DNA of 64,000 nucleotides. Origin: Bifidobacterium primatium. GTDB lineage: Bacteria; Actinomycetota; Actinomycetes; Actinomycetales; Bifidobacteriaceae. The stretch is from the NCBI RefSeq assembly GCF_002802875.1, contig NZ_PEBI01000001.1, forward strand, positions 397,830 to 461,829, in the 5' to 3' direction. The first letter of the stretch is position 1. Every line of letters begins with the position of its first letter. Below the pieces are notes generated by a model, which made no database searches, had not been told where the DNA came from, and saw only the letters and a program-made list of their open reading frames with translations. Below, piece by piece: positions 2,678 through 48,586 of the stretch. Made by a program: the position numbers and the translations under genes.

Positions 2678-3342
2678 GACTTCCTTTCGTAGTTGACGAA
2701 GCGGTAGCGTCGGATGCCTTCGGCCTTGGCCGGCTTCATCCAGCCGGTCTGTCCGGCGACCTCCCACAGGCCCGCCTCGACGTAGTCCTTCAGCGGAGGG
2801 GCGAAGGTGTCGGCGTCGAACTCGGCGTCGATCTCGGTGACGTACGCCTTCGATGCGAACGGCAGCGCCTCCTTGAAGATCTGCGCGCCGCCGATCACCC
2901 ACAGCTCGTTGCGTTCGATGCCGTCGTCGGGGATGGATTCCTGACGGGCCAGGTCGAGCGCGTCCTCGAGATTGTCCATGACCGTGGCGCCGGCGGCGCG
3001 ATAACGGTCGTCGTGCGAGATGACGATGTTGTCGCGGTTCGGCAGCGGACGGTACTTCTCCCCCAGCGACTCCCACGTCCTGCGGCCCATGATGACCGGA
3101 TGGGAGATCGTCAGATCCTTGAATCGCTTGAGATCCTCGGAAAGATGCCAGGGCATGCCGCCCTCGAAGCCGATCGCGCCCTCGCGACCGTCCTTGGAAC
3201 GGGCCTGTGCCCAGATGAGGTTCACGCGAATCGGGCGCAGACCGTCATCATGCAGGTCCTCGTTCGCCAGCTCCTCCTCGTAACGCCCGGCAGAACCGGG
3301 CTTGGGTTCGTGATAGCCGCTGCGGCTACTGTCATGCTCCAT
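2674..3342 (-). CDS. folA: Dihydrofolate reductase
   Basis: FolA reduces dihydrofolate to tetrahydrofolate with NADPH, regenerating the cofactor oxidised by ThyA just upstream. Of its 222 residues about the first 37 form an acidic extension not found in the compact family members. The DHFR core begins at IRVNLIWAQARSKDGREG. The substrate-site motif MPWHLSEDLKRFK contains the conserved acidic residue, MGRRTWESL is the NADPH-binding helix, and WVIGGAQIF is the second nucleotide motif. The ATG at 3342 has a GAAGGAG site 7 bases upstream, so the extension is probably real. Order on the minus strand is thyA, a 155-base gap, folA, then the overlapping phosphatase: a thymidylate-cycle operon. Confidence 0.95.
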   Translation of the reverse strand: MEHDSSRSGYHEPKPGSAGRYEEELANEDLHDDGLRPIRVNLIWAQARSKDGREGAIGFEGGMPWHLSEDLKRFKDLTISHPVIMGRRTWESLGEKYRPLPNRDNIVISHDDRYRAAGATVMDNLEDALDLARQESIPDDGIERNELWVIGGAQIFKEALPFASKAYVTEIDAEFDADTFAPPLKDYVEAGLWEVAGQTGWMKPAKAEGIRRYRFVNYERKS

Positions 3343-30780: not shown

Positions 30781-30840
30781 TGCGCAAACTATGAGGGACG
30801 GTCAAGGCGGGAAAGAACGTCGTTCGCGTCATACGCCTTT

Positions 30841-31124
30841 GGCACGGAGTAAAGATTCATGATGACGTTTCGTTCCGTGCCATGTGACGTGGCACGGAGT
30901 GGAATTGGGCCTTGAAAATCCATTCCCTGCCATGATTTTCCGGCAGGGAACGCGACATCTCGGCGATATTGCGTTCCGTGACAGAATCCTGGGCGACCAA
31001 CGTTCGGGAATCATTGAAATTCCAATGATTCCCGAACTTGACTGTGCAGGGAATCCGGCACGGAACGACGATAGATACGATGATGCGGTTCCGTGCCAGA
31101 TATCCGTGGCACGGAACCGCATCA
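30841..31124. repeat. Cluster of palindromes in a 559-base gene-free gap
   Basis: At least four hairpins follow each other: TTCCGTGCCA/TGGCACGGAG (30873-30899), TTCCCTGCC/GGCAGGGAA (30923-30950), a perfect 15-bp stem GTTCGGGAATCATTG/CAATGATTCCCGAAC with a 6-base loop (31002-31037), and a stem of about 20 bp at 31078-31126 with GGTTCCGTGCCA/TGGCACGGAACC and loop GATATCCG. The last recurs at 35757. No gene is seen in 30610-31168. Confidence 0.85.
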
Positions 31125-46747: not shown

Positions 46748-46796
46748 ATTTCATGCCCATCTCTTCTGTGTCGGCATAACGTCGCCTAACGTCTGT

Positions 46797-46964
46797 GTCG
46801 GTTATAACGCACGCGTGCGCAAAACCCGACACCAACGATATCTGACCGTCGGTTATAACGCATGAATCCGTTATAACCGACGCAAGGAATCTCTTAGCGG
46901 CGGTTTTCCCACACGCGTGCGTTATAACCGACGCTTAGCGGTCGTCAGAGTCGGTTATAACGCA
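46797..46964. repeat. Left array of 34-bp palindromes at 51-bp period
   Basis: Units at 46797-46830, 46848-46881 and 46899-46932 and a half-unit at 46950-46964. Each unit begins GTCGGTTATAACGCA or its variant and ends as the inverted copy (TGCGTTATAACCGAC or CAAAACCCGAC). Spacers are exactly 17 bases and unlike each other. The centre of each palindrome varies but stays roughly self-complementary. Together with the right array (48135) it frames a single gene. The gap 46682-47114 holds no other gene. Confidence 0.95.
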
Positions 46965-47114
46965 TTTCCGTCATTTGATACGACCACACGCACGTGCGAC
47001 GATAAACATCACGCACAGACCAGCGCGCACCTCATCATCATCCGAGGGTGGTCCATCCGTCAACATTTTCCGTACCACTTGCACTTGCATATGCGCCACA
47101 CATACCGTCGAATC

Positions 47115-48071
47115 ATGAAGACACATGCACCGACGGAACTACTGCTCGACGAAGCGGAACGAGAGCAACGGTGCGTCGTGGGAATGAACGAAAGACAGCG
47201 CAAACCGCTCCGCAGACGACGGGATACCGGCCTGCTCATATCGCCATACCGCAATCTTTATGCACGCGCATCATACTGGGAAACCCTCAATCCCATACAA
47301 CGCCATATGCATATGCTGAGGTCGTTGTCACTGCTGCATCCGAATTGGTCGTTCGCGGGACTCAGCGCCGCATGCGCACACGGTCTCGAACATACGTATT
47401 CTTTGCATGACAACGGCAACATCACCATAGCCAGTCCTTTCCATCCGAATCATTGCGGAGGATCTCTTCGACGAATCTATATGAACGACATAGATGGAAT
47501 ATCGGAATGGCATTCATCATTGCGTGTGACGAACATATACCGCACACTGCTGGATTGCTCAATGCTGTATCCGTTTGCACAGGCATTGCCCATCTTCGAT
47601 TCGGCGGCACGCCAAGGAACCGACATATCAGAGCTTCCCGAATACTGTCGTTCCCTGGGAATGGACAGCGCGGCGATAACGAAACTCTGCCTGAACACCG
47701 ATCCTTTAAGCGAGAACGGCGGGGAATCATTCATACGGGCCATGATCGAGGAAACGAATTTCGTGATTCCACGTCTGCAGCGGCCGTTTCGCAATCCCCG
47801 TAATCCCGATGCCCCGTTCCGCGCGGATTTCTCGTGGGAACTGCCCGACGGAACCATCATCGTGGCCGAGTTCGACGGCATGGGCAAATATGTGATCGAC
47901 GACGGGACGCGTCGGGGAATCCGAGCCCGAGTGTATGCCGAGCGCGAACGGGAGACGGCTTTGCGAGCAGATGGCGTTCGACGTATCGTCCGATTGGAAT
48001 ATGAGGACGCTTTGTATCCGGAACGACTGCGACGCAAACTGCTCGATGCCGGAGTGCCGCAACGTCGATGA
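47115..48071 (+). CDS. AT-rich orphan protein with PD-(D/E)XK-like (DUF559-type) nuclease domain
   Basis: A 318-residue protein of unknown role. The N-terminal half resembles AbiEi-type antitoxin/nuclease-linked proteins of actinobacteria (PYRNLYARASYWETLNP, WSFAGLSAACAHGL). The C-terminal half has the order ENGGESFIRAMI (Glu204), RADFSWE (Asp238), IIVAEFDGMGKY (Glu252, Lys258), which fits a restriction-endonuclease-like PD-(D/E)XK core, then a basic helix-rich end. Base composition is clearly lower in GC (30-32 G+C per 60 bases in sampled lines, against about 42 in pgm), with many rare A/T-ending codons, which suggests transfer. The start is uncertain: ATG 47115 has no Shine-Dalgarno; ATG 47091 is in frame. 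The gene stands alone, between the two palindrome arrays. Confidence 0.65.
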   Translation: MKTHAPTELLLDEAEREQRCVVGMNERQRKPLRRRRDTGLLISPYRNLYARASYWETLNPIQRHMHMLRSLSLLHPNWSFAGLSAACAHGLEHTYSLHDNGNITIASPFHPNHCGGSLRRIYMNDIDGISEWHSSLRVTNIYRTLLDCSMLYPFAQALPIFDSAARQGTDISELPEYCRSLGMDSAAITKLCLNTDPLSENGGESFIRAMIEETNFVIPRLQRPFRNPRNPDAPFRADFSWELPDGTIIVAEFDGMGKYVIDDGTRRGIRARVYAERERETALRADGVRRIVRLEYEDALYPERLRRKLLDAGVPQRR

Positions 48072-48134
48072 TGAGACGCTGCGGAGAGAACGCTGCCGCA
48101 AATACACTGCGCAACCGTATTGACGCCCGTCGCC

Positions 48135-48368
48135 GGCGGTTATAACGGATGCATCCGCAAAACCCGCCCCGCAATCACCGGTAGTGGCGGTTATAACGTA
48201 CACGTATGTAAAACCCGCCCCGTAGCACCTTCTAGAGTCGGTTTTTACGGATGTATGCGTTATAACCGACCCTTATCCACCACCAATGGCGGTTATAACG
48301 CATGCTTGCGTAAAACCCGACGCTCACCATTCGCAGGAGTCGGTTATAACGCATGCGTTATAACCGAC
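48135..48368. repeat. Right array of 34-bp palindromes at 51-bp period
   Basis: Units at 48135-48168, 48186-48219, 48237-48270, 48288-48321 and a 30-bp perfect palindrome at 48339-48368 (GTCGGTTATAACGCA followed by its exact inverse). The four spacers are each 17 bases. Left halves read GGCGGTTATAAC or GTCGGTTATAAC; right halves are either GTTATAACCGAC or AAAACCCGCC/AAAACCCGAC. Spacing and unit type match the left array. Confidence 0.95.
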
Positions 48369-48484
48369 ACGGTTGGAATGGTGGCCGAAGCGGCAGGACG
48401 ACATCATCGACGGGGACGAGCACGGCGTCGCCAACGAGGTCGGAGCCGCTTTACGGCCCCATGACGGCCGCATCGGGGGGCTGT

Positions 48485-48586
48485 GGGCACGGTTCGGTCC
48501 CTGTTTGTTGGATGCCGTGGGCACGGTTTGGTTCCCGTCCGTTGGATGCCGTAGACGCGGTTCGGTTCCCGTTCGTCGTATCCCGG
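48485..48586. repeat. Three 34-bp tandem repeats abutting the HtaA gene end
   Basis: Units 48485-48518, 48519-48552 and 48553-48586, sharing GGGCACGGTTYGGT, CCYGT and GTTGGATGCCGT; the third is diverged. The last unit ends one base before the stop codon of the minus-strand gene at 48587. Bases 48369-48484 show no clear gene. Confidence 0.85.

Follow-up and report, generated by a model that had tools for sequence, protein, structure and literature searches.

What do two arrays of palindromes with the same exact period do on either side of a single gene? This question is raised by a locus in the window, by which we mean the whole stretch of 64,000 nucleotides that was analysed. An earlier note, made from the letters alone, had taken the gene for a nuclease gene and the arrays for its DNA or RNA substrate. 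We propose here, with a probability of about 0.7, that the arrays are multiplied cognate operators of the protein whose gene they flank, a predicted fusion of an AbiEi-like part with a nuclease-like domain.

Arrays, gene and predicted protein in the window

The features of the locus are the following.

46770..46781, plus strand: degenerate half-site GTCGGCATAACG, outside the 51-bp register, read by eye
46797..46965, no strand: left array, with 34-bp units at 46797, 46848 and 46899 and a terminal half unit at 46950
47115..48071, plus strand: gene for the 318-residue protein, ATG at 47115, with a predicted AbiEi-like part followed by a predicted Vsr-like nuclease domain
47118..47288, plus strand: codons of the predicted winged-helix domain (model residues 1-57)
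47715..48059, plus strand: codons of the predicted Vsr/I-Bth0305I-like domain (model residues 200-314), with the invariant residues E203, D237, E251, D253 and K257
48135..48368, no strand: right array, with 34-bp units at 48135, 48186, 48237 and 48288 and a perfect 30-bp palindrome at 48339-48368
48480..48581, plus strand: F2 (GGTTCCCGTCCGTTG, a second family), represented by three half-sites at a step of 34, probably a remnant

When the nine units and the spacers between them were read again, the coordinates, unit lengths and 51-bp period given in the earlier note all proved exact, and the seven spacers of the left and right arrays are 17 bp each. The left array lies 150-318 bp upstream of the start codon and the right array begins 64 bp 3' of the gene end. 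The core CGGTTATAACG is present in 11 copies in the window, against a mean of 0.00 in 100 dinucleotide shuffles. The neighbours of the gene are a phosphoglucomutase and a convergent fn3 protein; a scan of the window neighbours found no AbiEii (DUF1814) toxin gene beside it, and there are no cas genes among the three nearest large genes around the array. Since the units vary at most positions, the spacers are short with fixed ends and cas neighbours are lacking, a CRISPR-Cas array was rejected, as was an origin of the window arrays as a plain tandem repeat, in agreement with what the earlier note had concluded on both counts.

A third family of palindrome arrays (TGGCACGGAAC and its inverse, step about 51) is located at 30840-31115 of the window, between genes named by eye from their reading frames as MFS-like and glycosidase-like. 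It recurs in further stretches of the same genome (L128, L136), and no homologue belonging to this family was found.

The window protein alone has no match in Pfam or NCBIfam, and the family profile has no sequence match in the PDB. In the predicted structure the N-terminal two thirds are similar to the AbiEi antitoxin and the C-terminal domain to Vsr and I-Bth0305I, so that the model combines the AbiEi fold of the AbiE type IV toxin-antitoxin systems with a Vsr/PD-(D/E)XK, homing-endonuclease-like fold with conserved acidic residues. The five putative catalytic residues listed above (model numbering starts at the second codon of the window gene) are invariant in 49 of 49 family members. The guess of a PD-(D/E)XK enzyme thus fits the model; the AbiEi-like two thirds had been missed, and they indicate double-stranded operator DNA and not a folded substrate. 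In some homologues the frame carries one internal stop (L194 in G080, and copies in G095, G103 and G120); the L194 copy is still adjoined by an array.

Association of gene and arrays across the Bifidobacteriaceae

Homologues of the 318-residue protein (E <= 1e-30) were found in 108 of 189 Bifidobacteriaceae genomes. To find arrays irrespective of their sequence we used a detector of chains of palindrome centres at a constant step. Detector and thresholds were set during the analysis, and 162 kb of dinucleotide-shuffled DNA yielded 0 chains. An array lies within 600 bp at 40 of 69 homologue loci, and on both sides at 19 of them; these loci were picked down the rank list of homologues without prior sight of their flanks, are biased towards close homologues, skip some rows (contig ends, further copies in one genome), cover part of the homologues found and, being related by descent, are not independent. 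The homologue flanks contain 66 arrays in 279 kb. Control stretches, at arbitrary, not randomised, positions, contain 6 arrays in 400 kb (19 of the same genomes) and 13 in 739 kb (the source genome, G000, and G001), which makes the density in the flanks 14.2-fold higher. This enrichment is conservative because some of the control chains are compositional.

Arrays within 650 bp are present at 41 loci, which represent 17 neighbourhoods; at 16 of the 41 loci the array is confined to the 3' side and at 6 to the 5' side. Period-62 arrays are present on both sides of the homologue in B. leontopitheci (L060 = L161) and Bifidobacterium sp. ESL0763 (L061 = L162). A paralogue clade (14 tree rows) has arrays in none of its members. 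Among 35 homologue loci outside Bifidobacterium (L062-L096) no convincing flanking array was seen; weak chains occur at four of them (L067, L078, L094 and L096), the one at L096 lying 100-176 bp before its match. Arrays are also found far from homologues, at about 1-2 per 100 kb.

The lack of the window-type family (F1) at most relatives' orthologues might imply that the arrays have no link to the gene. This proved wrong, since those orthologues carry other arrays, which became visible only by eye and with the sequence-blind detector. All seven close orthologues in the genus, among them those of G000 and G002, are framed by arrays on either side, and five sequence families are represented. F2 (GGTTCCCGTCCGTTG-N9-CAACGGACGGGAACC, period 52) replaces F1 on both sides of the orthologous gene in B. 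saimiriisciurei (G005) and B. pluvialisilvae (G004), as read at 2704-3052 and 4139-4546 of L049 and in L052; these two genomes contain 78 and 45 units of it, respectively. B. vansinderenii has one more family to the left of the orthologous gene and another to the right; the latter is the left-hand family in B. callimiconis (G001), whose right-hand family is found in turn on both sides of the gene in G007. Other Bifidobacterium carry a family GGCGGTTnTTACGGA-N14-TCCGTAAnAACCGCC with an F1-like half-site and, again, a 17-bp spacer; its unit is 10 bp longer than that of F1 and its period of 61 amounts to one helical turn more. Eight places with weak model matches in other Bifidobacterium comprise six F3-like ones, one F4 and one (G056) with nothing. 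The repeat GCGTTGAAAAGCAGA, counted with up to one mismatch, is multicopy in 4 of 189 genomes (46 copies in G115, 43 in G105, 28 in G112 and 11 in G108; 0-3 in the others). It stands on both sides of a homologue in G112 and G115 and 1.35 kb from a homologue in G105, with another frame between; in G108 it lies apart from the listed homologues.

Array period and sequence are coupled to the protein tree. On a tree of 83 proteins, in which 18 rows have a period of 51-54 and 23 rows a period of 61-63, the period class changes 3 times, whereas 300 label shuffles gave a mean of 13.8 changes and a minimum of 9. The sole row out of place in its clade, L175, has a step of 61 between one arm pair and 51 between the other. 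Array similarity drops with protein distance (Spearman -0.38, 41 loci, reached in 0 of 2000 permutations), and some protein pairs of about 70% identity carry unrelated arrays. In a scan with 30-column windows, residues 31-58 track the array sequence best after the overall distance is removed (partial correlation -0.217, reached by 1 of 1000 permutations; -0.238 among the more distant pairs, 702 of 820); the nuclease domain gives at most -0.107 and residues 131-160 give -0.171. In the model, residues 31-58 run from the end of helix 25-36 through wing strands 40-44 and 47-50 into the helix that follows. The counts at homologue loci against sparse controls thus show that the link between array and gene extends beyond what the letters of the window could reveal, and the earlier note's idea of a nuclease-like protein with its own array, REP/RAYT-like in logic and of another protein family, is supported by the bracketing, the 17 neighbourhoods and the coupling to the tree.

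Candidate operators, their possible role and the rival readings

The published operators of AbiEi-like proteins offer a measure for these arrays. The site bound by AbiEi consists of two inverted repeats of 23 bp with a 3-bp gap, and Rv2827c binds two pairs of 23-bp repeats, with 13 bp within and 4 bp between pairs; both proteins autoregulate through such repeats, AbiEi bends the DNA, and the extra 10 bp in the Rv2827c operator are suggested by the authors to make room for its larger C-terminal domain (PMC7319586). Laid head to tail, these operators would give a step of 26 (period about 52) or a period of 63, close to both classes seen here. Exactly four half-sites, the number in the Rv2827c operator, are present in 12 of the 20 dispersed GCGTTGAAAAGCAGA arrays, and 11 of these 12 have steps of 31, 31 and 31 or the same with one step of 30.

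We infer that each half-site of about 23 bp would be bound by one monomer. Along an array the half-sites would face one way and the other in turn, with steps of about 26 bp where the period is 51-54 and 31 bp where it is 61-63. A pair would then span five or six helical turns, which would put the bound pairs on much the same side of the duplex. The arms would be read by the winged helix, arm sequence and protein changing together, and the 5'-side array probably autoregulates the gene, by analogy with AbiEi. Copies of these operators scattered 3' of other genes would form a genome-wide set of docking sites. As to the nuclease, our guess is that the domain, held at the arrays, makes breaks whose repair lets the arrays grow, shrink and persist, and the benefit of such action is likewise guessed.

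Dispersal was analysed in the source genome and in the four genomes with GCGTTGAAAAGCAGA. The exact core CGGTTATAACG occurs 44 times in the source genome, in 13 arrays, namely the two of the window and 11 at other places; a variant array was seen at a twelfth further place (L116). The step between full units is 51 in 32 of 33 cases and 100 in one. For the 13 exact-core arrays no divergent place was read; in two cases inspection by eye overruled the heuristic gene caller, which had made L007 divergent and had placed L008 within a frame. By the earlier note's own reckoning, arrays lying mostly far from such a gene would speak against a link. To the letter this is the case in the source genome, where 11 of the 13 exact-core arrays lie away from the gene; but REPs also disperse, and the link appears across genomes, not within one.

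The 20 GCGTTGAAAAGCAGA places lie between 11 convergent, 9 tandem and 0 divergent gene pairs, compared with 22 convergent and 24 divergent among 117 control gaps of at least 150 bp (P 0.0003 for convergent and 0.010 for divergent, places counted singly). Five groups of these places are orthologous between species; with each group counted once, 13 sites are left, of which 7 are convergent (P about 0.005) and 0 divergent (P about 0.05). At the L010 place of the source genome only the last half unit is kept in G004 and G005, and at the L011 place G005 is empty and G004 keeps a degenerate array, which makes loss likelier than insertion there; no target duplication or fresh insertion was seen at these two places. 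The partial and missing arrays thus indicate that arrays grow, shrink, get lost and persist by descent.

Several further observations concern the genomic setting. In the source genome the exact-core F1 arrays are confined to contigs C1 and C2, the other contigs making up 40% of the genome, a possible positional bias on the chromosome. A further phased family (AACGYGTCTTTT and its inverse, step about 26) is present at L126 16862-16966 of the same genome. At L037 (G002) the gene enclosed by the arrays has, with respect to the surrounding genes, the opposite orientation to that in G000 and G005, as though the two arrays had recombined and flipped it. In G005 one set of genes with its array is present in two copies that lie 130 kb from each other and run in opposite directions (L042 and L043; C1:96000-106000 and 226000-236000), either an assembly artefact or a real inverted duplication (contamination estimate for G005, 9).

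Since the arrays are dispersed at gene ends and bracket the gene, and since the putative active site is invariant, a pair similar to REP and RAYT is the most likely role of arrays and protein; taken alone, it falls somewhat short of even odds. We tentatively put the fuller version of this role, a RAYT-free repeat-nuclease system based on double-stranded operators, on the same footing: AbiEi-nuclease fusions would maintain, diversify and spread their phased arrays in the genomes of bifidobacteria, and the operator would switch as the winged helix evolves. Two other roles are serious rivals. The arrays could be chromosomal or gene-end elements that, when bound, bend or insulate the DNA between convergent genes, kept by the host with the protein as a nucleoid-type factor. 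The placement between convergent genes, the conservation of arrays at the same places between species and the DNA bending by AbiEi (PMC7319586) agree with this; however, array sequences are replaced between related species, several families coexist within one genome and arrays are lost at single places, and we rate such an element as unlikely. Slightly less probable still is a plain regulator, an AbiEi-like repressor whose operators were amplified at its own gene and regulon and whose nuclease domain is a relic or a ligand sensor. Autoregulation by AbiEi and Rv2827c through such repeats (PMC7319586) and the left array upstream of the start codon in the window are what a regulator would predict, but the dispersed arrays avoid divergent promoters (0 of 20 against 24 of 117 control gaps, and 0 divergent with 7 convergent among the 13 sites counted once), 3'-only arrays outnumber 5'-only arrays at the 41 loci, and the putative catalytic residues are invariant in all 49 members.

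A further reading sees the working form of the arrays in RNA or single-stranded hairpins, like the REPs that serve RAYTs, or in guide RNAs of the TIGR-Tas kind. The units are palindromic, and the earlier note had read their central changes as compensated, so that structure is kept. An alignment of 70 distinct F1 units from four genomes contradicts this. Positions that mirror each other are invariant or almost so (G4, G5, T7 and T9 with A26, A28, C30 and C31, and others), and the arms are fixed around short variable centres. The inner pairs 6-29, 8-27, 10-25 and 11-24 are anti-correlated (pair 8-27 is Watson-Crick in 13 of 70 units with 29.6 expected if independent, and pair 10-25 in 11 of 70 with 27.4 expected), because the majority of units consist of an A half (GGTTATAACG) and a B half (for instance GGGTTTTGCG). 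Clear covariation is limited to the outer pairs 2-33 and 3-32, where it holds inside a unit and scarcely between positions on either side of the spacer; the covariation score of the structure drawn without the anti-correlated pairs was reached by 6 of 500 shuffles, which with the outer pairs speaks for a hairpin. RNAalifold predicted no consensus pair on F1 units, and a search of 8 loci against Rfam gave a single match, below its cut-off and outside the array, and no family at the array. The spacers, previously called unlike one another, in fact show weak self-complementarity and almost invariant ends (C36 in 68 of 70 and G50 in 60 of 70). The uncompensated inner pairs and the missing consensus fold thus favour a duplex site with two half-sites over a folded strand, the genomes with F1 lack Y1_Tnp, the 49 members lack Nop matches, and we regard a hairpin or guide RNA as very improbable. 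Chance meeting or shared tolerance of insertion, both arrays and genes being common in Bifidobacterium and arrays occurring far from homologues too, is the least probable reading of all and is largely refuted by the 14-fold enrichment, the two-sided bracketing and the agreement of both period and sequence with the protein tree.

Comparison with known systems

The sequences suggest that the protein family and its evenly spaced palindrome arrays form an undescribed protein-repeat partnership, the parts of which are known. No description of such a pair came up in searches of the open-access literature on AbiEi with DUF559 or nuclease domains, on palindromic or interspersed repeats of Bifidobacterium, or on MTES_1575. 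A possible earlier sighting of a member of these arrays is GGGACAG(N)15TGTCCC of B. animalis subsp. lactis, with 21 copies, 20 of them intergenic and mostly nearer a 3' end, left unexplained and linked to no gene in the available portion of its description (PMC5217627); the motif has 0 matches in the loci fetched here.

TIGR-Tas systems resemble the locus in that arrays adjoin a nuclease gene and end units are truncated (PMC12045711). Their repeats are fixed and their 9-nt spacers vary (PMC12045711), whereas here the arms are fixed and short centres vary, and no Nop family is among the Pfam matches of the 49 members at E 0.1. The Vsr and I-Bth0305I endonucleases differ in that the DNA-binding part is predicted to be AbiEi-like in our protein. 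The AbiEi (S. agalactiae) and Rv2827c (M. tuberculosis) operators are akin in the predicted fold of the protein and in a spacing that fits both period classes (PMC7319586). In contrast, the window gene has no adjoining toxin gene and has a fused nuclease domain, and its putative operators are multiplied on both sides of the gene and across the genome.

REP/BIME elements and RAYTs are similar in that palindromes are dispersed between genes in arrays, with a gene bracketed by its own repeats and with repeats and protein evolving together (PMC2817692, PMC3733652). RAYT genes are flanked by their REPs (PMC2817692), and a gene bracketed by repeats that are also dispersed is likewise what we found. 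As to the GTAG or CGTC foot of REP hairpins, the F1 consensus contains none in fixed form. A RAYT origin of the F1 arrays was rejected because PF01797 (Y1_Tnp, the IS200/IS605-like tyrosine transposase domain of RAYTs) is absent from the four F1 genomes, G000, G002, G004 and G005; it was found in 1 of 9 genus genomes searched (G003). The protein here is predicted to be AbiEi-like and Vsr-like and not a tyrosine transposase, the period is strictly 51/52 or 61/62, and the evidence favours duplex DNA.

A protein family barely recognised by curated libraries is now linked to a large set of unexplained intergenic palindromes, and the persistence of REP-like repeats in bacteria becomes testable with a partner unrelated to RAYTs. 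The natural series of candidate protein-operator pairs may allow recognition residues to be read against DNA sequence. If the RAYT-free system is real, it would be an AbiEi protein freed from its toxin, and a second, independent invention of the way of life of REPs and RAYTs.
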